Part shown: piece by piece, positions 8,538 to 24,565 of the stretch
Numbering within the stretch: position 1 is the first letter of the stretch
Layout: each line of letters begins with the position of its first letter
Source of the DNA: a virus
DNA length: 26,093 bases
Direction: 5' to 3' (one strand)
Virus record (IMG/VR): IMGVR_UViG_3300040816_000925
Location: 1-26,093 of that record
The notes under the pieces: generated by a model
The model's database searches: none
What the model saw: the letters and a program-made list of their open reading frames with translations, nothing else
What the model was told of the DNA's origin: nothing
Program-made: the position numbers and the translations under genes

Positions 8538-8665
8538 TTCTCATCCTTTACTAAAAAGTTTACTTTAACAACATTGCCTTTTTGCTTTCTAATATAAAAT
8601 TCTAATCCGTGTTCCAAAAAAATCTTTTTCAGATCTGATACAGTTTTTTCGTCTGTTATTTTCAT
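8534..8665 (-). CDS. Small 43-aa protein between the topoisomerase subunits
   Basis: Found by hand translation: MKITDEKTVSDLKKIFLEHG, then a short C-terminal half that includes LEFYIRKQKG and ends VKDEK. Its ATG overlaps the gene 39 stop (ATGA) and its TGA overlaps the gene 52 ATG (ATGA), so it is stitched into the operon on both sides. The protein is basic, probably a helix followed by a beta hairpin. No family recognised. It could act as a coupling peptide or a topoisomerase accessory factor; both are guesses. Confidence 0.8.
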   Translation of the reverse strand: MKITDEKTVSDLKKIFLEHGLEFYIRKQKGNVVKVNFLVKDEK

Positions 8666-10482
8666 GCGAACATAAACTCCTTGCGCAAGCCGGCATCTTT
8701 ACCGAACATCATTTCAAAAATTTTCACATCGTCCACAGTCACTGTGTCATATGTTGGTTTATTAATTATAACGTGATACTCATCCTCCTGAAGGCTGCCG
8801 AGTCCTTTTATATAACGGTGTTTCCAACCAGCCTGATTGGCTTTAAATTCCGAAGCCTCCTCATATGTATAGAACCATTTTGTATCTTTACCTTTGGTCG
8901 ATATCATAATAGGTGTCCGTGTGATTTTAACACGCCGTTCTTGTAACAAACGCGGCCAGAACTTGTAGAAGAATGCAATCAGCAATGGTGAGATGTGACC
9001 AATTCCGTCATGGTCAGCGTCTGTGAGTGTCGCAATACTTCCATATGTCATATCATCGACACTATTTGGGTTATTAATGTCTAGCCCGAGTACAGCAACC
9101 AATTCACTCAATTCTTTATTTTTAAGTACATCAGCTGGTTTCATATCCCAGGTATTCATAATAACACCACGCAATGGAAATGCACCAACCTTATTAGGAT
9201 CACGTACCTTTAATAGGAAACCCATGGCTGAGTCACCTTCCACAATTTTGAGTGTAGCATCATCTTTATTTGCCGCAATGTGTTTCGCAACCTTGACCTT
9301 CTTAAGTTTTTTCTGAGCCATGGTTGCGGCACGTCTATCAGCTGCAATCTTCTTTGCCAATTGAGCTTCGATGATCGGATCAATGATCTCGGGTGTGTTG
9401 AGAATTTTACGAGCATAGAATACAAAGTCCTTGCACTCAGCACTCTCATAATGTTCCTTTACATTGCTCATTGGGTTCGTCAATTTTTCCTTCGTCTGTG
9501 AATCAAACTTAGGATTGACAAAGTTTCGAGAGAATAGAACAAAGGTCAAACCATTTTTAATTGTGGCTTTTACAACATCAATTTTATGTTTCTTTTTAAT
9601 CATGGTGACCAGTTCTTCAACCACACCATTTACAATATAGTCAACATATGAACCACCCTGCCGTGTATTCACACCATTGACAAAACTGTTTGATCGGAAA
9701 CCATCCTCGGATGAACCAAAGAAAAATGATACGTTATCTGATTTTTCAATTACCACGTGTTCACTGAACAGAGCAGAATATTTTTTCAGATCCGAAACTT
9801 GAATCCGACGCTTATTAAAAGAGAAACGAATTTCCGGAAACGACATTTGAAGCGATACAAGACGTTCTTCAAGTAGTTCAATCGTATCTAAAGAGTTAAT
9901 TGAATCCGTCTCAAAAAGTTCATAGTCGGGAATGAAGCAAACCTCGGTGCCACTTCCTGCCTTTTCCTTTGTTTTGACATCAATATAATTGCCCCCATCC
10001 TTACAGATGACCTCAACCATTGTTCCATTCTGCCATGTTTTACCATGGAATTTTGTGGATAAGAAATTGGTTGCGGCTGAACCGACACCGTTTGTACCGA
10101 TTGTAACTCGTTCATCATCAAAACTTGTTCCGGCATTCACCTTAGTCCATGCTGCAACTGGTCTGAGAATATTCTCTCCAGTGGTCTCGTCGTATACCTC
10201 TTCTTGAGGAATACCACGGCCGTTATCGGTTACGATGATCTTGTCATCTTCGACCGATACATTAATTTTATTAGCATATTTAAAATTGGTACGGATCGCC
10301 TCGTCGATGGCATTATCCAAAATCTCGTCAACCATCTTGGATAAGGCTGGTACATAAACCGCCTTTTTCCATTTGCCGAGAACGAACCGTTCAATTTCTT
10401 CCATCGAACTTGATCCCATGTACATGCCGATACGCTCTCGGACGTGTTGACGGGCTGTAAGTATTCTAAATTGTTCTGTCAT
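8662..10482 (-). CDS. 39: gp39-like DNA topoisomerase II large subunit (unsplit)
   Basis: A 606-aa GyrB-like subunit: GHKL ATPase domain with LDNAID (55-60), DNGRGIP (86-92) and the lid GTNGVGSAATN (129-139), a transducer domain, then TOPRIM with IVEGDSA (413-419) and DADHDG (488-493), which bind magnesium for DNA cleavage. In T4 the TOPRIM region is split between genes 39 (516 aa) and 60; here the gene is continuous, the unsplit form. Its promoter at 10513-10540 starts the leftward unit 39, 43-aa gene, 52. GAGG lies about 11 bases before the ATG. Confidence 0.96.
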   Translation of the reverse strand: MTEQFRILTARQHVRERIGMYMGSSSMEEIERFVLGKWKKAVYVPALSKMVDEILDNAIDEAIRTNFKYANKINVSVEDDKIIVTDNGRGIPQEEVYDETTGENILRPVAAWTKVNAGTSFDDERVTIGTNGVGSAATNFLSTKFHGKTWQNGTMVEVICKDGGNYIDVKTKEKAGSGTEVCFIPDYELFETDSINSLDTIELLEERLVSLQMSFPEIRFSFNKRRIQVSDLKKYSALFSEHVVIEKSDNVSFFFGSSEDGFRSNSFVNGVNTRQGGSYVDYIVNGVVEELVTMIKKKHKIDVVKATIKNGLTFVLFSRNFVNPKFDSQTKEKLTNPMSNVKEHYESAECKDFVFYARKILNTPEIIDPIIEAQLAKKIAADRRAATMAQKKLKKVKVAKHIAANKDDATLKIVEGDSAMGFLLKVRDPNKVGAFPLRGVIMNTWDMKPADVLKNKELSELVAVLGLDINNPNSVDDMTYGSIATLTDADHDGIGHISPLLIAFFYKFWPRLLQERRVKITRTPIMISTKGKDTKWFYTYEEASEFKANQAGWKHRYIKGLGSLQEDEYHVIINKPTYDTVTVDDVKIFEMMFGKDAGLRKEFMFA

Positions 10483-10572: not shown

Positions 10573-10601
10573 TTGACATTGATTATGTAATATGGTAGTA
10601 T
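10573..10601 (+). promoter_or_regulatory. Sigma70-type promoter for metallopeptidase gene 10633
   Basis: GG-TTGACA (10573-10578), 17 bases, TAGTAT (10596-10601), about 31 bases before the ATG. A run of T and A bases at 10544-10570 precedes it. Confidence 0.85.
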
Positions 10602-10632: not shown

Positions 10633-11031
10633 ATGAACCAAGTATATGTATATAGTCACAAATACAAAAGAGAAACACTCGTTGAGGACGTAACTTACTT
10701 CTGCATCAAGGAACTTTTACCTCGGTTCAGTACATTAGATATAACAATAGAGCTAAGTAGTGACATGAGATCGGATCAATTTGGTGCGGTTGTTGCCTTG
10801 GATCGCCGAGAGTTCGAGATGGAACTCTCCGATAAGCTATCAGATGATGATCTGATCTCGACCATATGCCACGAAATGGTCCATGTCAAGCAATACGTTC
10901 GGAACGAAATACCCTTGGTTGGCGGTGTAAACTATAGAACATATAAAGAGTACCAAAACCAACCTCACGAGATCGAGGCCTTTGCATTAGAGAAAATATT
11001 GGCGAAAAAATTTAAAATAAATGCAAAATAA
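10633..11031 (+). CDS. Putative zinc metallopeptidase (HExxH, minigluzincin-like) 1
   Basis: A 132-aa protein with CHEMVHVKQ (HExxH at 80-84) and a downstream PHEIEA block (111-116), where a glutamate can supply the third zinc ligand; this is the layout of single-domain gluzincin-type peptidases. There is no signal peptide, so it should act in the host cytoplasm. It resembles the 12032 gene, which has HELVHVKQ and PWEKEA in the same positions. It is driven by the promoter at 10573 with AAGG before the ATG. Its last codons lie in a 36-base repeat that contains the next promoter. The target is unknown. Confidence 0.8.
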   Translation: MNQVYVYSHKYKRETLVEDVTYFCIKELLPRFSTLDITIELSSDMRSDQFGAVVALDRREFEMELSDKLSDDDLISTICHEMVHVKQYVRNEIPLVGGVNYRTYKEYQNQPHEIEAFALEKILAKKFKINAK

Positions 11032-11040
11032 TGGTTGACA
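11005..11040 (+). repeat. Promoter-bearing intergenic repeat, copy A
   Basis: A 36-base A-rich element running from the last codons of gene 10633 to the -35 box of the next promoter. It matches 25680-25715 at 33 of 36 positions by hand alignment. See the copies at 25680 and 26067. Confidence 0.8.
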
Positions 11041-11063
11041 TATAAGGCTATATATGATAGTAT
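11035..11063 (+). promoter_or_regulatory. Sigma70-type promoter for 11092-11795
   Basis: GG-TTGACA (11035-11040), 17 bases, TAGTAT (11058-11063). Predicted transcript start near 11070, leaving a leader of about 22 bases with AAAAGGAAC before the ATG at 11092. Confidence 0.85.
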
Positions 11064-11091
11064 GGTTATATAAGGTGAAAAAAAGGAACTT

Positions 11092-11190
11092 ATGATGATT
11101 AAATCGACTTTGACTTTTATGATGACTGAAACGCTTTCAGTAGTGTTTAACCTAAGCTTTATTGCTGCAATTATTTGGGTACTAGTGTAA
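11092..11190 (+). CDS. Tiny 32-aa membrane protein
   Basis: Read by hand: MMIKSTLTFMMTETLSVVFN and then a hydrophobic stretch FIAAIIWVLV to the stop. One probable membrane helix covers roughly residues 14-32. Support comes from the strong AGGAAC ribosome site 5 bases before the ATG, a promoter just upstream, and a TAATG overlap with the next gene at 11190. Function unknown; it resembles nothing I recognise beyond being one of two tiny membrane proteins placed between metallopeptidase genes. Confidence 0.72.
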   Translation: MMIKSTLTFMMTETLSVVFNLSFIAAIIWVLV

Positions 11191-11795
11191 TGATCAAATA
11201 CGATAAAATCGAATACCAAACATATCTTCTTAAGCATAGCCGTAAGCAGAATAAAGGTGCCGTAGGTAATGATACCGAAAAAACTAAGACCTACACTGCT
11301 GAATGGAGATTTGAACAGCAGTTAGGCAATAAGATCAAAGACTTTGGTAATATTGTCGAAGCTCAAAAATATGCGACAAAGGTGGTTAAGTCCAAAACTT
11401 GGAGAAAGCTACTTGATGAAAAGGACCGTTCCTTAAGTACCGTTAACGTAGTCGCAAAGAAACGCTCCACTGGTCGTAATACAGCTGGTTGGGCACGAGG
11501 TAATACAGTCACATTGGATATGATGTGTGGGCTAGATGAATACACCTTGCTCCACGAAATGGCTCATTGCCTAGGTAACTGGCACCATGGTCGGTCATTC
11601 CGCCGGGACCTTCTGAAATTGGTCTCCCGGTTTATGGGTTCTGATGCTGCTAAGACTCTTAAAGCTTCGTTTAAGGAATCAAAATTGGCTTGTGGGGAAC
11701 CACGCAAACCTTTGTCTTTCGATGCTTGGCAGGCAGCTAGGGCCCGGGCACAACATATGTTAGATGTCTCCGGATCACCTATTAAAAAGGTATAA
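11190..11795 (+). CDS. Putative zinc metallopeptidase (HExxH...HGxxF, SprT/WLM-like)
   Basis: A 201-aa protein. LLHEMAHCLGNWHHGRSF at 120-137 gives HExxH (122-126) and a third histidine six or seven residues on (132 or 133) followed by GRSF, the arrangement of SprT/WLM-type zinc peptidases. The N-terminal 100 residues are basic and lysine-rich and may bind nucleic acid; this is inference. The ATG at 11190 is chosen over an in-frame TTG at 11175, because it overlaps the stop of the 32-aa gene (TAATG) and the TTG lies within that gene. It is not closely similar to the two neighbouring HExxH proteins. Confidence 0.82.
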   Translation: MIKYDKIEYQTYLLKHSRKQNKGAVGNDTEKTKTYTAEWRFEQQLGNKIKDFGNIVEAQKYATKVVKSKTWRKLLDEKDRSLSTVNVVAKKRSTGRNTAGWARGNTVTLDMMCGLDEYTLLHEMAHCLGNWHHGRSFRRDLLKLVSRFMGSDAAKTLKASFKESKLACGEPRKPLSFDAWQAARARAQHMLDVSGSPIKKV

Positions 11796-11816
11796 CGATA
11801 TAACAAAATGATATAA

Positions 11817-11845
11817 GGGAGGGGTTGACATTCTCCTCTCTTTTT
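11817..11845 (+). terminator. Rho-independent terminator nested in the next promoter
   Basis: Stem GGGAGGGG (11817-11824) pairs with CTCCTCTC (11833-11840) over 8 bp with two G-U pairs; the 8-base loop is TTGACATT, and five T bases follow (11841-11845). The loop contains the -35 box of the next promoter. Confidence 0.7.
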
Positions 11846-11853
11846 GATAGAAT
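11825..11853 (+). promoter_or_regulatory. Sigma70-type promoter for 11861 onward
   Basis: GG-TTGACA (11825-11830), 17 bases, TAGAAT (11848-11853). The predicted start near 11860 coincides with ATGATGATG at 11861, so a transcript from here would be nearly leaderless for the first gene. Confidence 0.82.
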
Positions 11854-11860
11854 AGGTACT

Positions 11861-12019
11861 ATGATGATGTTACTTTGGTTACCATCCATAATTCTTCTCT
11901 TCCTCGGATTTATCGTCCTTGTCGCAGGCTTTAGTATTCTCACCTCAATGGTAGTATTTGTGTGGGAACATCCCTTAATAATTCTTTTACTTGTACTTGC
12001 TATATTTTTATTACTTTAA
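11861..12019 (+). CDS. 52-aa membrane protein
   Basis: MMMLLWLPSIILLFLGFIVL and onward: two hydrophobic helices at about 4-33 and 37-52 with a short WEHP turn. The start is ATG 11861 (or one of the next two ATGs). A TTG at 11825 in the same frame is the promoter -35 box and is rejected as a start. A weak AGG sits at 11854-11856. With so short a leader the gene may be read from a leaderless mRNA or from read-through. It could be a small holin-like or membrane-targeting protein; nothing specific identifies it. Confidence 0.7.
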   Translation: MMMLLWLPSIILLFLGFIVLVAGFSILTSMVVFVWEHPLIILLLVLAIFLLL

Positions 12020-12031
12020 TAGGAACTTTAT

Positions 12032-12457
12032 ATGTACTTTGATGTTGTGACTCCCTCTGCTAAAAACGCAAATGTTGGTTTGGCTGCCTATGCTACAATG
12101 GCTAGTAACTTTTTCTGTAAACAGTTAGGTATCAATCGTTTAAAATGTCATGTCACATTAACTATGCACCAAAAGTTATATATTGATGGGAAGGGAACTG
12201 AAGGGTCTTGTGAGGCAATATCGGATAGAGTTTTTAATGTTGATGTTGCACTGTATGGTAATTGGCTGAGTACTCTTGCTCATGAATTGGTCCATGTTAA
12301 ACAATTTGCTCGTGGTGAGCTCGATGATAGAATGACTCGCTGGAAAACTAATAAATATTGCGAGAACATTGATTATTGGGATCAACCTTGGGAAAAAGAA
12401 GCCCGGCGACTCCAAACAAAATTAATGGGTGACTTTGAAAAGTTTATGATGGAGTAG
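12032..12457 (+). CDS. Putative zinc metallopeptidase (HExxH, minigluzincin-like) 2
   Basis: A 141-aa protein with LAHELVHVKQFARGE at 82-96 (HExxH at 84-88) and DQPWEKEARR at 117-126, the PWExEA-type block expected to bring the third ligand glutamate. The two blocks match those of the 10633 protein, so the pair are probably diverged duplicates flanking the different SprT-like gene. No signal peptide. AGGAAC lies 8 bases before the ATG. It is followed after 3 bases by the glycosyltransferase gene, so it shares a transcript with the sugar cluster. Confidence 0.8.
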   Translation: MYFDVVTPSAKNANVGLAAYATMASNFFCKQLGINRLKCHVTLTMHQKLYIDGKGTEGSCEAISDRVFNVDVALYGNWLSTLAHELVHVKQFARGELDDRMTRWKTNKYCENIDYWDQPWEKEARRLQTKLMGDFEKFMME

Positions 12458-12460
12458 ATA

Positions 12461-13375
12461 ATGGATATTTTTCTTTTTAATTCTAAATTAAATGAGGATT
12501 ATCTTGCTGATCTGTTTATCGGCGAAATGCTTATATCGGATAAAATTGGTAGGATATATACTAACCACCTTCCTCCTTATCTGTTTACTGATTTTAATGA
12601 AAATCGTCCTCTGTATGGTCGAGGGTTTACAGTATTTAAAAAGATGGATCCTAAGCTCAAGAACAGAGTAACAATAATTCCACACGGCCAGATTCCTGAG
12701 TTTATCCAAAGCCAGACCGCTAAAAAGATCATATACACGAGTGTTCATCGTAGGGCATTTCCAGAGAATCACCATATGGCTGATTATTTTGGGCTTGTAT
12801 CTGAAGCCTATGATAAAAAGGACATTATAGTAATTGATGGTGAGGATTATGAAACAGTTAAACACAATGTCGCCGAGCAATCAACCTATTATAAACGAGA
12901 GCTTTTAAAGCACCAGGAAACTATTGCTAGTCCTATTTCGTTTTCATTCCCTCGCTTCCATAAAAAACCAAAACTGGCGGTAAAGGAATATTTACTAGCA
13001 CCCTGTGATCCTAGGTTTAGAGCTTCATATAAGTTTAATACGGAAGAGCAATACTATTCTCAATATTCAAAGGCATTATTTGCAGTTACAAAGAAAAAAG
13101 GTGGCTGGGATTGTATGCGGCATTATGAAATACTTGCATGTAATTGTCTTCCATACTTTTTATGCATCGAAGAGAAACCAGACACGACAATGTCAACGTG
13201 GCCTATGGAATTACAATTAGCTGCAAATCATCTATACGAGAGAATGTCAAGATCTAATATAAAGGACTTTGATCTTTATGAATGGGAGACATTAAATACC
13301 AAATTTCAAAAGTGGTTTAGAGCTGAAGGACACAGCAACATATATTTAAAGGTGATAAATGAATCCAAAACTTGA
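12461..13375 (+). CDS. Putative glycosyltransferase, exostosin-like C-terminus (paralog of 14829 gene)
   Basis: A 304-aa protein. The C-terminal third contains GWDCMRHYEILACNCLPYF (215-233), which resembles the sugar-nucleotide-binding segment of GT-B/exostosin-type transferases (G-D-x-x-R-x-YE...C-x-P). STYYKREL (141-148) and LLAPCDPRF (178-186) are shared with the 14829 protein, which has the same length and order of blocks. The N-terminus begins MDIFLFNSKL like a Rossmann strand. It is probably cytoplasmic. It heads a run of sugar and methyl transfer genes. The donor and acceptor are unknown. GGAG lies 7 bases before the ATG. Confidence 0.68.
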   Translation: MDIFLFNSKLNEDYLADLFIGEMLISDKIGRIYTNHLPPYLFTDFNENRPLYGRGFTVFKKMDPKLKNRVTIIPHGQIPEFIQSQTAKKIIYTSVHRRAFPENHHMADYFGLVSEAYDKKDIIVIDGEDYETVKHNVAEQSTYYKRELLKHQETIASPISFSFPRFHKKPKLAVKEYLLAPCDPRFRASYKFNTEEQYYSQYSKALFAVTKKKGGWDCMRHYEILACNCLPYFLCIEEKPDTTMSTWPMELQLAANHLYERMSRSNIKDFDLYEWETLNTKFQKWFRAEGHSNIYLKVINESKT

Positions 13376-14192
13376 AGGCTTTCCTAGCTGTTATGTAATT
13401 AATCTTGAAGAGGCAGAAGACCGCCGAGCATATATGAAAGAGCAATTTGCCAAACACGGCATTAAAAACTATCATATAAAACAATTTAAAAGATTTGATG
13501 ACGCTAATCTGTGTGTAAAGGCACCACAAGAAGTGGTGGATGTATTAGCACTTGGTCTTACCACTTCTCATTTATTGATGATTAAATGGTGGTATGAAAA
13601 CCGCACTGAAGATGTGTGTGCTATTATGGAGGACGATTGTGATTTTGATTTAATTCAGCATTGGAACTTTAAATTTAGTGATTACATCCGACAGTTTGGA
13701 CCGCTTTGGGATGCAATACAATTGTCTGTGGTTCATGAAGGCTGGCCCGTGATGGCACCGAGAGTTCGAGATCCTTGGGATCATGGGTTGCAATGTTATA
13801 TTATTAAAAGACATTATGCCAAAAAGATTGTTGAGTATTATTTTAATCAAGGTGCCTCCAATATTATTAGTATTAGAATGGTCTGGTGTCAGCGAGAGCC
13901 GTTTATGGTTAAATTACAACCAACGCCTGAGAATATTGTATTAGGGCTAGGGCATGTATATACACATCCAATTTTTAATCATAATGTACACGATTTCAAA
14001 TCAATGAACCCGACTGATAATGTTGGTCTGGCAAAGAGACAACATGAAAACTCGGAATCAACATATGTATATGTCAAGGAATGGTGGGAAAAGATAGGAA
14101 CTAATTCTACATTGGAACAGTTATTTGATTATGAGTACTGTTGCCCAGCCCATACGAATCAAAAGTTCATGTATATACCTATTGATGTGTAA
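13359..14192 (+). CDS. GT25-family-like glycosyltransferase
   Basis: A 277-aa protein with the GT25 (LPS biosynthesis-type) pattern: N-terminal CYVINLEEAEDRRAYM (11-26), a GLTTSHLLMIKWW segment (66-78) equivalent to the family's SH motif, and AIMEDDCDF (88-96), the acidic metal/donor-binding motif. A later DPWDHGLQCYIIKRHYAKKI block fits the acceptor side. It begins inside the end of the upstream gene (17-base overlap) with AAAGGTGAT before the ATG. GT25 enzymes transfer galactose or glucose to lipooligosaccharide or protein; which applies here cannot be told. Confidence 0.8.
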   Translation: MNPKLEGFPSCYVINLEEAEDRRAYMKEQFAKHGIKNYHIKQFKRFDDANLCVKAPQEVVDVLALGLTTSHLLMIKWWYENRTEDVCAIMEDDCDFDLIQHWNFKFSDYIRQFGPLWDAIQLSVVHEGWPVMAPRVRDPWDHGLQCYIIKRHYAKKIVEYYFNQGASNIISIRMVWCQREPFMVKLQPTPENIVLGLGHVYTHPIFNHNVHDFKSMNPTDNVGLAKRQHENSESTYVYVKEWWEKIGTNSTLEQLFDYEYCCPAHTNQKFMYIPIDV

Positions 14193-14828: not shown

Positions 14829-15707
14829 ATGAAATTGTTTATCTATAACCCTGACTTTACTCCTGAAACATTAAAGGATCTTATTATAGGTCATTTAATA
14901 TTTTGTGGTAATGTAGAAATATATGCAAATTCTCTCAACGCTGCATATTTTAATGATTGGGGAAATGCAACAAACCATTCGGTTTATAAAAACATCCCGG
15001 CATGGAAAAAAGAAAGAATTACTTGGATCTCACCTAAACAAGCTCATAATTATGATTTTGACATGGTTTTATTTTCCGACATCAATTGGCTATCCAAAAA
15101 TATGAATGCTCCTTTTGTGGAAAAGATATTTAAAAAATATAATAAAAAGAATATTGTTGTGATTGACTCTACAATGTCACATTCCCCACATTTAAATGTT
15201 GCTAGAAAATCGACCTACTACAAAAGAGAAATTGGCGAGCAAAAACATAAACTGGTGCATCCTATACACCATGCATTTCCTGTATATAGGCAACGATTTA
15301 CTCGTGAAGTAAAAACATCACTTTTGGCCCCATATGATTCCAGGTTTCTACCTAATTCAAATGTGTTTAAAGTAGAGCATTATTATTATGTGCAATTTCT
15401 TAAGGCAATGTTTGCAACAGTGACTTATAACGATCAATTAGGCTGGGATACTATGCATGTGTATGAGATTATAGCATCACATTGTGTACCATACTTTCCA
15501 GACATAGAGAAAAAACCTAAATATATAATGCACGACTACCCGGTGGATTTACAATTAAAGGCTAATAAGCTATTTGAATCATTAATCATCGGCTCCGAAC
15601 AAATATCAATAACCCAAGAATATCACGATATTCGAGACAAATTTGAGGAATGGTTTCAAGAATGCGGTACAAGTTACATTTATCATAAAATGTTTCAGCC
15701 AACGTAA
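14829..15707 (+). CDS. Putative glycosyltransferase, paralog of 12461 gene
   Basis: A 292-aa protein collinear with the 12461 product: STYYKREI (128-135), LLAPYDSRF (165-173), then GWDTMHVYEIIASHCVPYF (205-223), and a similar C-terminal tail ending in SYIYHKMF against SNIYLKVI. The two copies flank the GT25 and methyltransferase genes, so the group probably grew by duplication. Divergence is high, which argues for an old event or separate acquisition of two family members. It is the last gene before the promoter at 15715. Confidence 0.68.
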   Translation: MKLFIYNPDFTPETLKDLIIGHLIFCGNVEIYANSLNAAYFNDWGNATNHSVYKNIPAWKKERITWISPKQAHNYDFDMVLFSDINWLSKNMNAPFVEKIFKKYNKKNIVVIDSTMSHSPHLNVARKSTYYKREIGEQKHKLVHPIHHAFPVYRQRFTREVKTSLLAPYDSRFLPNSNVFKVEHYYYVQFLKAMFATVTYNDQLGWDTMHVYEIIASHCVPYFPDIEKKPKYIMHDYPVDLQLKANKLFESLIIGSEQISITQEYHDIRDKFEEWFQECGTSYIYHKMFQPT

Positions 15708-23599: not shown

Positions 23600-24565
23600 A
23601 TGGAACTACTCACAATGTGGAGTCTTATCGGATTCCTGCTTGCTGCGTATGCAGTTATCGCCAACGATTCAGTACAAACGCTCGGTACTTGGATGGCATC
23701 AAACAATGAGCGATTTAATTATAAAGTATTATGGGCAGCGGCATCCGCTGTTTTATTGTATACACTATGGTATGGTTGGTATATGAATGGTGGCGATATA
23801 TCTTATGGCCGTTTGAATAAAATTCCATTCCAAGATGTACAATGGTATCATGCCGCGGCACCTGCCATTCTTGTTTTACTAACACGAATGGGTGTTCCGG
23901 TTTCAACATCATTTTTAGTCTTATCAGTATTTGCTTCAACCTTTGTGTTGGAAAAAATGCTTATGAAATCAATTATGGGCTATGGTGTTGCTGCAGCATT
24001 TGCTTATGCTGTGTGGTTTGCTATCCATAAGTATTTTGGTAAATGGTACGACGAAACTCAACCAGTATCTGAAAGCAATAAAAAGTTTTGGCGTATTGCC
24101 CAATGGGTAGCAACAGGTGGATTATGGTTTACTTGGTTGTCGCATGATATTGCTAACATTGCAGTATTCCTACCACGTGCCATTCCTGTAGACCTAATGG
24201 TGTTTATCAGCATTGTGTTTGTTGCCGGCTTGTTCTTTATGTTTAGAGAAAAAGGTGGTAAGATCCAGAAGATTGTTTTGGAAAAACATAATACTCGATA
24301 TGTACGGTCAGCGACACTAATTGACTTGTTCTATTGGTTATGTCTGTACTTTTTCAAAGAACTGAATGATATTCCTATGAGTACCACGTGGGTATTTGTT
24401 GGGTTACTTGCAGGTCGTGAATTGGCTATGGCTACATATTTTGGTAAAAAGAAAACAAAATCAGTATTTCCCTTGGTCGCTAAAGACTTTGGTAAAATGA
24501 TGGTAGGACTTGGTGCCTCGGTTGCGTTAGTATTACTGATTCATTATGTTATAAACCCGTCATAA
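23600..24565 (+). CDS. PiT-family inorganic phosphate transporter
   Basis: A 321-aa integral membrane protein with the inverted-duplicate PiT signature. In the first half, ANDSVQTLGT (21-30) and GVPVSTS (98-104); in the second, SHDIANIAVFLPR (181-193) and IPMSTTW (258-264). In PiT carriers these ND/HD helices and P-x-S-T-T loops bind phosphate and the coupling cation. About nine to ten hydrophobic helices are visible, with a cytoplasmic loop at 145-165 and another at 215-235. It is smaller than most bacterial PiT proteins (400-500 aa). It should sit in the host inner membrane and raise phosphate uptake for phage DNA synthesis. AAGGAG is 6 bases before the ATG. Confidence 0.82.
   Translation: MELLTMWSLIGFLLAAYAVIANDSVQTLGTWMASNNERFNYKVLWAAASAVLLYTLWYGWYMNGGDISYGRLNKIPFQDVQWYHAAAPAILVLLTRMGVPVSTSFLVLSVFASTFVLEKMLMKSIMGYGVAAAFAYAVWFAIHKYFGKWYDETQPVSESNKKFWRIAQWVATGGLWFTWLSHDIANIAVFLPRAIPVDLMVFISIVFVAGLFFMFREKGGKIQKIVLEKHNTRYVRSATLIDLFYWLCLYFFKELNDIPMSTTWVFVGLLAGRELAMATYFGKKKTKSVFPLVAKDFGKMMVGLGASVALVLLIHYVINPS

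Follow-up and report, generated by a model that had tools for sequence, protein, structure and literature searches.

Small zincin-type metallopeptidases and membrane microproteins in a putatively early locus of a marine T4-like phage

Some of the group 2.2 jumbo phages carry one to three SprT-like metallopeptidases, and the patchy pattern of these genes has led to the proposal that the enzymes cleave host proteins (PMC7824862). A second described set is the cyanophage family T4-GC_70, annotated as a 'WLM protease domain', with members in P-SSM2 (gp74) and S-BM3. Outside the phages, the closest named enzymes are Spartan/SprT and Wss1/WLM and the archaeal minigluzincins selecase and abylysin. 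Lone SprT-like zincins of phages are usually filed as hypothetical proteins.

The locus described here is located in a virus record of 26,093 bases, the whole of which is called the window below. The record belongs to a marine T4-like phage and contains T4-like genes, including those of both topoisomerase subunits. The locus comprises three genes of small zincins (P1, P2 and P3) and two genes of membrane microproteins (m1 and m2). It is like the jumbo-phage set in having several small zincins in a T4-like phage and in its patchy distribution. Here, two unlike zincin families are joined repeatedly, and one of them has a conserved membrane partner. Our preferred reading, to which we give a probability of about 0.4, is that the locus encodes an early phage proteolysis module built of two kinds of small cytoplasmic zincin, P2 and the P1/P3 type, with m2 at P3 and with host proteins as the likely targets.

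Layout of the locus and its transcription units

The features of the locus are listed below, with pN/pS values that refer to the comparison with L003, an independent contig.

8662..10482, minus strand: ATPase-type subunit of a phage type II topoisomerase, GyrB-type profile matches, divergent from P1
10512..10539, minus strand: early-type promoter-like site directed towards the divergent topoisomerase gene, TTGACA-N16-TATGAT, from a consensus scan
10573..10601, plus strand: early-type promoter-like site of P1, TTGACA-N17-TAGTAT, counterpart in L003
10633..11031, plus strand: P1, 132-aa zincin with HExxHxxQ and PxExEA blocks (CHEMVHVKQ ... QPHEIEA), weak DUF6782 / SprT-like matches, phrog_10499 at E 6e-18, pN/pS 0.18/0.58
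11035..11063, plus strand: early-type promoter-like site preceding the m1-P2 unit, TTGACA-N17-TAGTAT, counterparts in L003 and in contig L012
11092..11190, plus strand: m1, 32-aa microprotein with a single predicted TM segment, stop codon overlapping the P2 start (TAATG), homologues in L003 and L012, pN/pS 0.36/0.64
11190..11795, plus strand: P2, 201-aa SprT/WLM-like zincin, LHEMAHCLGNWHHGRSF, HExxHxxGxxHHxxxF, N-terminal helical part, pI 9.9, pN/pS 0.14/0.57
11825..11853, plus strand: early-type promoter-like site preceding the m2-P3 unit, TTGACA-N17-TAGAAT, L003 counterpart TTGACT...TAGAAT
11861..12019, plus strand: m2, 52-aa microprotein with two predicted TM segments and a conserved loop F-x-W/Y-x-N/H, pN/pS 0.33/0.62
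12032..12457, plus strand: P3, 141-aa zincin with HExxHxxQ and PxExEA blocks (AHELVHVKQ ... QPWEKEA), distant P1 paralogue of a separate clade, pN/pS 0.24/0.69

The earlier note on this DNA had placed five open reading frames, alternately peptidase and membrane protein, between 10633 and 12457, and all five were found there. In L003 the order is identical: topo39 in antisense orientation is followed by P1-m1-P2-m2-P3 and a GT-like gene. In the comparison of the two contigs pN is lower than pS in all five genes, and this, together with the kept position, rules out m1 and m2 as chance reading frames. The small genes, whose absence or breakage in all relatives the earlier note had named as refuting its reading, are kept intact, m1 in L003 and L012 and m2 with pN below pS in each of the 12 pairs compared. 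A blastn search of the whole locus against phage records gave no match.

The alternation of peptidases and membrane proteins, which had been taken as a conserved design, did not hold. The full five-gene order is confined to the source and L003, m1 occurs in three genomes, and most relatives of P1 and P2 have no membrane gene directly upstream; strict alternation as a general design is thereby ruled out. L012 has P1, m1, P2 and an m2-like gene, and its GT-like gene adjoins the m2-like gene where P3 would be.

The window contains 11 sites of the form TTGACA-N16-18-TANNAT, against 0.63 expected in the same consensus scan. An early-type promoter had been claimed for each section of the locus; consensus-like sites do precede P1, m1 and m2, all three with counterparts in L003, but P2 and P3 have none of their own. 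The promoter-like sites therefore define three transcription units: P1 alone, m1-P2 with its stop/start overlap, and m2-P3 with a gap of 12 nt. Since P2 and P3 lack a promoter of their own, a lone gene (P1) with two microprotein-peptidase pairs (m1-P2 and m2-P3) describes the locus better than an alternation. Only 7 nt separate the end of the -10 hexamer of the m2 site from the first of three m2 ATG codons (11848-11861), with identical spacing in L003, so that an m2 transcript would have next to no leader. P3 relatives that lack m2 often have a promoter-like site of their own about 60 bp upstream of P3.

Downstream, a GT25-like glycosyltransferase gene (13359-14192) is flanked by the genes of two proteins of about 300 aa that look alike (12461-13375 and 14829-15707); the first of these has no Pfam match. 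Elsewhere in the window, a 321-aa multi-TM protein (23600-24565) resembles by eye an inorganic phosphate transporter and is a possible auxiliary metabolic gene.

The two zincin families

P1 and P3 belong to one family, called the A-family here, and share the HExxHxxQ and PxExEA blocks, as had been noticed from the sequence. Searches yielded 402 stretches with P1 relatives and 53 with P3-type relatives, and P3 matches phrog_10499 (E 6e-17) much as P1 does. Five residues, H84, E85, H88, E121 and E123, are invariant in the alignment of 69 relatives, of which 47 match DUF6782 and 25 match SprT-like profiles. The AlphaFold2 model of P3 (pLDDT 93.5) places E121 and E123 on a helix (119-140), giving the gluzincin arrangement of an HExxH motif and a downstream Glu on the following helix. 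The structures that VIA matched to this model have a zincin fold or the zincin-like fold of YbeY; the best, the YbeY-family structure 1oz9, has Z 10.5, and M1 peptidases follow within 1 Z unit. M1 aminopeptidases, PPEP-1, Wss1 and Spartan are also among the structural matches, and a Foldseek search of the model against the PDB gave no match at E <0.001. P1 and P3 are most likely single-domain, gluzincin-like cytoplasmic peptidases.

In a tree of 94 rows of the family, which includes loci fetched with P2, P1 and P3 fall in different clades, that of P3 with an SH-aLRT value of 97. They belong to separate old clades of one family, and an origin of P3 by local tandem duplication of P1 is ruled out by the tree. 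In a scan of genome contigs, most of what was found lay on contigs that look phage-like or was a secreted relative from bacteria, with uninformative neighbours. On a contig binned to Lewinella (L238:99-2054), a zincin gene of the P1/P3 family lies directly 3' of a gene resembling the topoisomerase subunit of the source locus.

P2 belongs to a different family. A scan of viral contigs with the single sequence returned nothing; the alignment-based scan did succeed and found 325 relatives. H122, E123, H126, H132 and H133 are invariant in 42 aligned relatives. The HExxH motif with a further downstream His is the pattern of the SprT/WLM zincins, in which H132 or H133 would serve as a metal ligand. 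P2 of the source locus matches neither the SprT nor the WLM profile; the WLM profile is found in 21 of the 42 relatives with a best E of 3.4e-5, and scores stay below the curated cut-offs. The AlphaFold2 model of P2 (pLDDT 92.7) gave a VIA list led by zincins, with M1 peptidases at Z 6.5, Spartan at 6.3 (21% identity) and abylysin at 6.2; M1 peptidases and Spartan are tied, and all these values are under the tool's caution level of 8. Foldseek found no PDB match at E <0.001, and among viral models SprT-like and IrrE-like phage proteins were matched. The SprT/WLM-like label that the earlier note had given to the middle peptidase agrees with the WLM matches of the relatives and the presence of Spartan among the structural matches.

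Assignment of P2 to the metzincins was considered and rejected. The metzincin signature HExxHxxGxxH is invariant in the P2 alignment, but no invariant Met that could form the Met-turn follows closely after the zinc motif, position 149 varying between Met and Leu. Metzincin chains are missing from the VIA matches listed, which excludes nothing. Among 33 distinct P2 loci (e.g. L139, L194), a PD-(D/E)XK nuclease is encoded nearby in 15 and a DUF932 protein in 13.

The main rival to a host-directed module starts from these properties of P2. It holds that P2, and perhaps P1 and P3, are phage counterparts of Spartan and Wss1 that cut proteins trapped on DNA, for example stalled topoisomerase complexes, and so serve the phage's own replication and not takeover of the host. 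The nearest named families of P2 are WLM and SprT, and the P2 family is uniformly basic, with pI 9.6-10.3 (about 9.9) against a median of 6.1 for neighbouring proteins; this charge is only suggestive and would not by itself demonstrate DNA binding. The neighbours of P2 are often DNA-metabolism genes, such as the nuclease just mentioned, and a replication role fits them equally well. P1 is divergent from the topoisomerase gene, and P3 shares a locus with a topoisomerase gene in 38 of 53 loci, at a distance of 0.7-3.9 kb in 37 of the 38. This adjacency, however, is the synteny of one clade; the P1/P3 family is not basic (median pI 6.6) and has no recognisable separate DNA-binding domain, and clearing of trapped proteins gives no role to m2. 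We regard this explanation as possible but doubtful, and place it behind the early proteolysis module.

Linkage between the peptidases and the microproteins

The conserved signal that is stronger than the alternation is the coupling of the two unlike zincin families. Distinct loci were defined by shared tripeptides, gene calls were mechanical and many of the contigs are fragments. Of the 33 distinct P2 loci, 12 have an A-family gene within 300 bp of P2, as compared with 3 of 212 reading frames more than 1.5 kb away (Fisher p 3e-6, with the flanking slots counted as two per locus); 15 of the 33 have no A-family gene in the fetched stretch. The neighbouring genes occur in both orders and in several clades, with stop/start overlaps of one and four bases. 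On the A-family tree, adjacency undergoes eight or more changes and is therefore not one inherited arrangement. When neighbours were clustered, the loci fetched with P2 being included, the A-family ranked first among the neighbours of P2, and P2 ranked first among those of the A-family.

The loci fetched by P1 alone agree with this. An HExxH motif is present in 10 of 61 reading frames within 400 bp and in 4 of 206 distant ones (p 1e-4), and the partner zincins are of at least three kinds: P2, an SprT-like protein with HEVSHFVQY, and a DUF6647-like protein. In three contigs (L022:415-888, L023:7354-8004 and L032:7525-8004) a different SprT-like zincin (HEVSHFVQY...HGExFQ) has a four-base overlap with the start of the P1-family gene. 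In the cultured Methylophilales phage Melnitz, homologues of P1 and P2 are both present, far apart. The linkage shows a shared function of the two families; it does not show host targeting.

The membrane segments of the microproteins, one in m1 and two in m2, were predicted by simple hydropathy and by eye. Purifying selection between the source and L003 is indicated by Fisher p values of 0.013 for m1 and 0.002 for m2. For m1, which has homologues only in the source, L003 and L012, pN is below pS in the comparison with L012 (p 1e-5), the other two m1 pairs, over the same 29 codons, being marginal (0.05-0.08). In each of these genomes the P2 start overlaps the stop codon of m1, and m1-P2 therefore looks translationally coupled.

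The m2 homologues have a common layout of two segments and a short loop F-x-W/Y-x-N. An m2-like reading frame lies immediately upstream of P3 in 18 of 27 distinct rows of the P3 clade and in 3 of 67 family rows outside it (p 5e-10, a value that ignores shared descent), often at a gap of 2-20 nt; the other 9 of the 27 have none. At an E threshold of 0.05, a set of 25 m2 homologues gave no match to a PHROG profile, short hydrophobic proteins being hard to match. A scan for further loci with the full m2 alignment, which is too little conserved, found nothing, and a scan with a subset gave five loci, of which four lie on contigs that were in the collection before. Across many phages m2 is tied to one peptidase clade, that of P3, which fits an action near the membrane. 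In 13 of the 33 distinct P2 loci, a gene of a 112-aa multi-TM protein (DUF6552, E 2.7e-16; L172:5611-5946 and homologues) is found within 2.5 kb of P2.

Tiny membrane genes are abundant in the early regions of T4-like phages. In one alternative the peptidases do form a module, but the two microproteins are ordinary small early membrane proteins, with a role, for example, in exclusion or in disturbing the membrane, which do no more than share transcription units with the peptidases. The rarity of a membrane gene upstream of P1 and P2 in most relatives speaks for this, as does L012, which keeps an m2-like gene beside P2 with no adjacent P3. The preference of m2 for the position directly before P3, often at a close distance, and the m1/P2 overlap in each of the three genomes speak against it, and we consider it unlikely that the microproteins are bystanders.

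Proposed function and comparison with known systems

In the early proteolysis module that we prefer, P2, a SprT/WLM-like peptidase with a helical N-terminal addition and a strong positive charge, would most likely work on proteins bound to nucleic acid. The pairing of an A-family enzyme with an unlike second zincin in many phages suggests that both probably belong to a single pathway, in which they might, for instance, attack one and the same complex or work in succession. The m2 protein, a predicted membrane hairpin of two helices encoded directly ahead of P3, would most likely hold or activate P3 at the inner membrane; m1 may do likewise for P2 or merely set the dose of P2. Likely targets early in infection would be host proteins, such as those associated with the nucleoid, transcription or the membrane. 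The zincin nature of the enzymes and their coupling rest on the results of the programs used; the substrates, the recruitment to the membrane and the host-directed purpose are what we infer. A more specific version would be a membrane-tethered system of lytic phages, in which m2 is a dedicated anchor or activator of P3 at the inner membrane, and P2 and a P1/P3 enzyme are two proteases of one pathway by which a particular process of the host is taken apart soon after infection. This version is speculative, and we would not expect it to hold in full.

Processing of phage proteins, as in virion or tail maturation, has been proposed for some zincins of group 1 jumbo phages (PMC7824862). The promoter sites of the present locus are of early type, no recognised structural genes lie directly beside P1-P3 in the window, presence is patchy and the partners vary, all of which makes such a role improbable here. 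Least probable of all is that P1 and P3 are metal hydrolases with substrates other than proteins, such as RNases of the YbeY fold, since the YbeY-family match that heads the P3 list is tied with M1 peptidases, the sequence profiles favour peptidase families, and the motif retains the catalytic Glu of HExxH and the downstream Glu pair in gluzincin-like manner.

The early proteolysis module turns scattered hypothetical proteins of marine phages into a defined and testable unit, and gives a handle on whether T4-like phages employ targeted proteolysis in the early phase of infection. The homologues of P1 and P2 in the cultured phage Melnitz may open the module to genetic tests.

Of the known systems, those of defence and counter-defence were ruled out, the PADLOC profiles giving no match to P1, P2, P3 or m2. 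P2 is like Spartan/SprT and Wss1/WLM in its HExxH motif with a close His, in the WLM profile of half of its aligned relatives and in the structural match to Spartan; it differs by the extra N-terminal helical part, by having no recognised accessory motifs of crosslink repair and by scores below the curated cut-offs. The likeness to the archaeal minigluzincins is weak: the P1/P3 profile matches the MJ1213 selecase at E 0.009, and P2 matches abylysin and selecase structurally. The metallohydrolase family TIGR04338 (HEXXH_Rv0185) matches residues 51-164 of P2 (E 4.8e-7, 29.8 bits against a cut-off of 90), and P2 has an additional basic N-terminal region.

Among phage proteins, the T4-GC_70 family is homologous to P1/P3 by tblastn, P1 matching P-SSM2 and S-BM3. 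The four cyanophage proteins included in the tree branch off separately, and in the loci inspected no m2-like gene directly precedes them and P2 is absent from the stretch covered. The text on the jumbo-phage SprT-like set mentions neither a zincin pair from two families nor a membrane microprotein partner, and the source locus is likened to that set by description only (PMC7824862). Open-licence literature on WLM proteases in cyanophages and on phage-encoded proteases gave nothing relevant, and in the open-licence papers searched neither the coupling of the two zincins nor the pairing of m2 with P3 was found described. The earlier note knew of no described counterpart; this is too broad, as SprT-like zincins of phages and the idea of host-protein cleavage are published (PMC7824862) and T4-GC_70 has been named. 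Phage SprT-like zincins and the idea of their use in takeover are thus not new; what appears to be new is the coupling of the two zincins and the pairing of m2 with P3.
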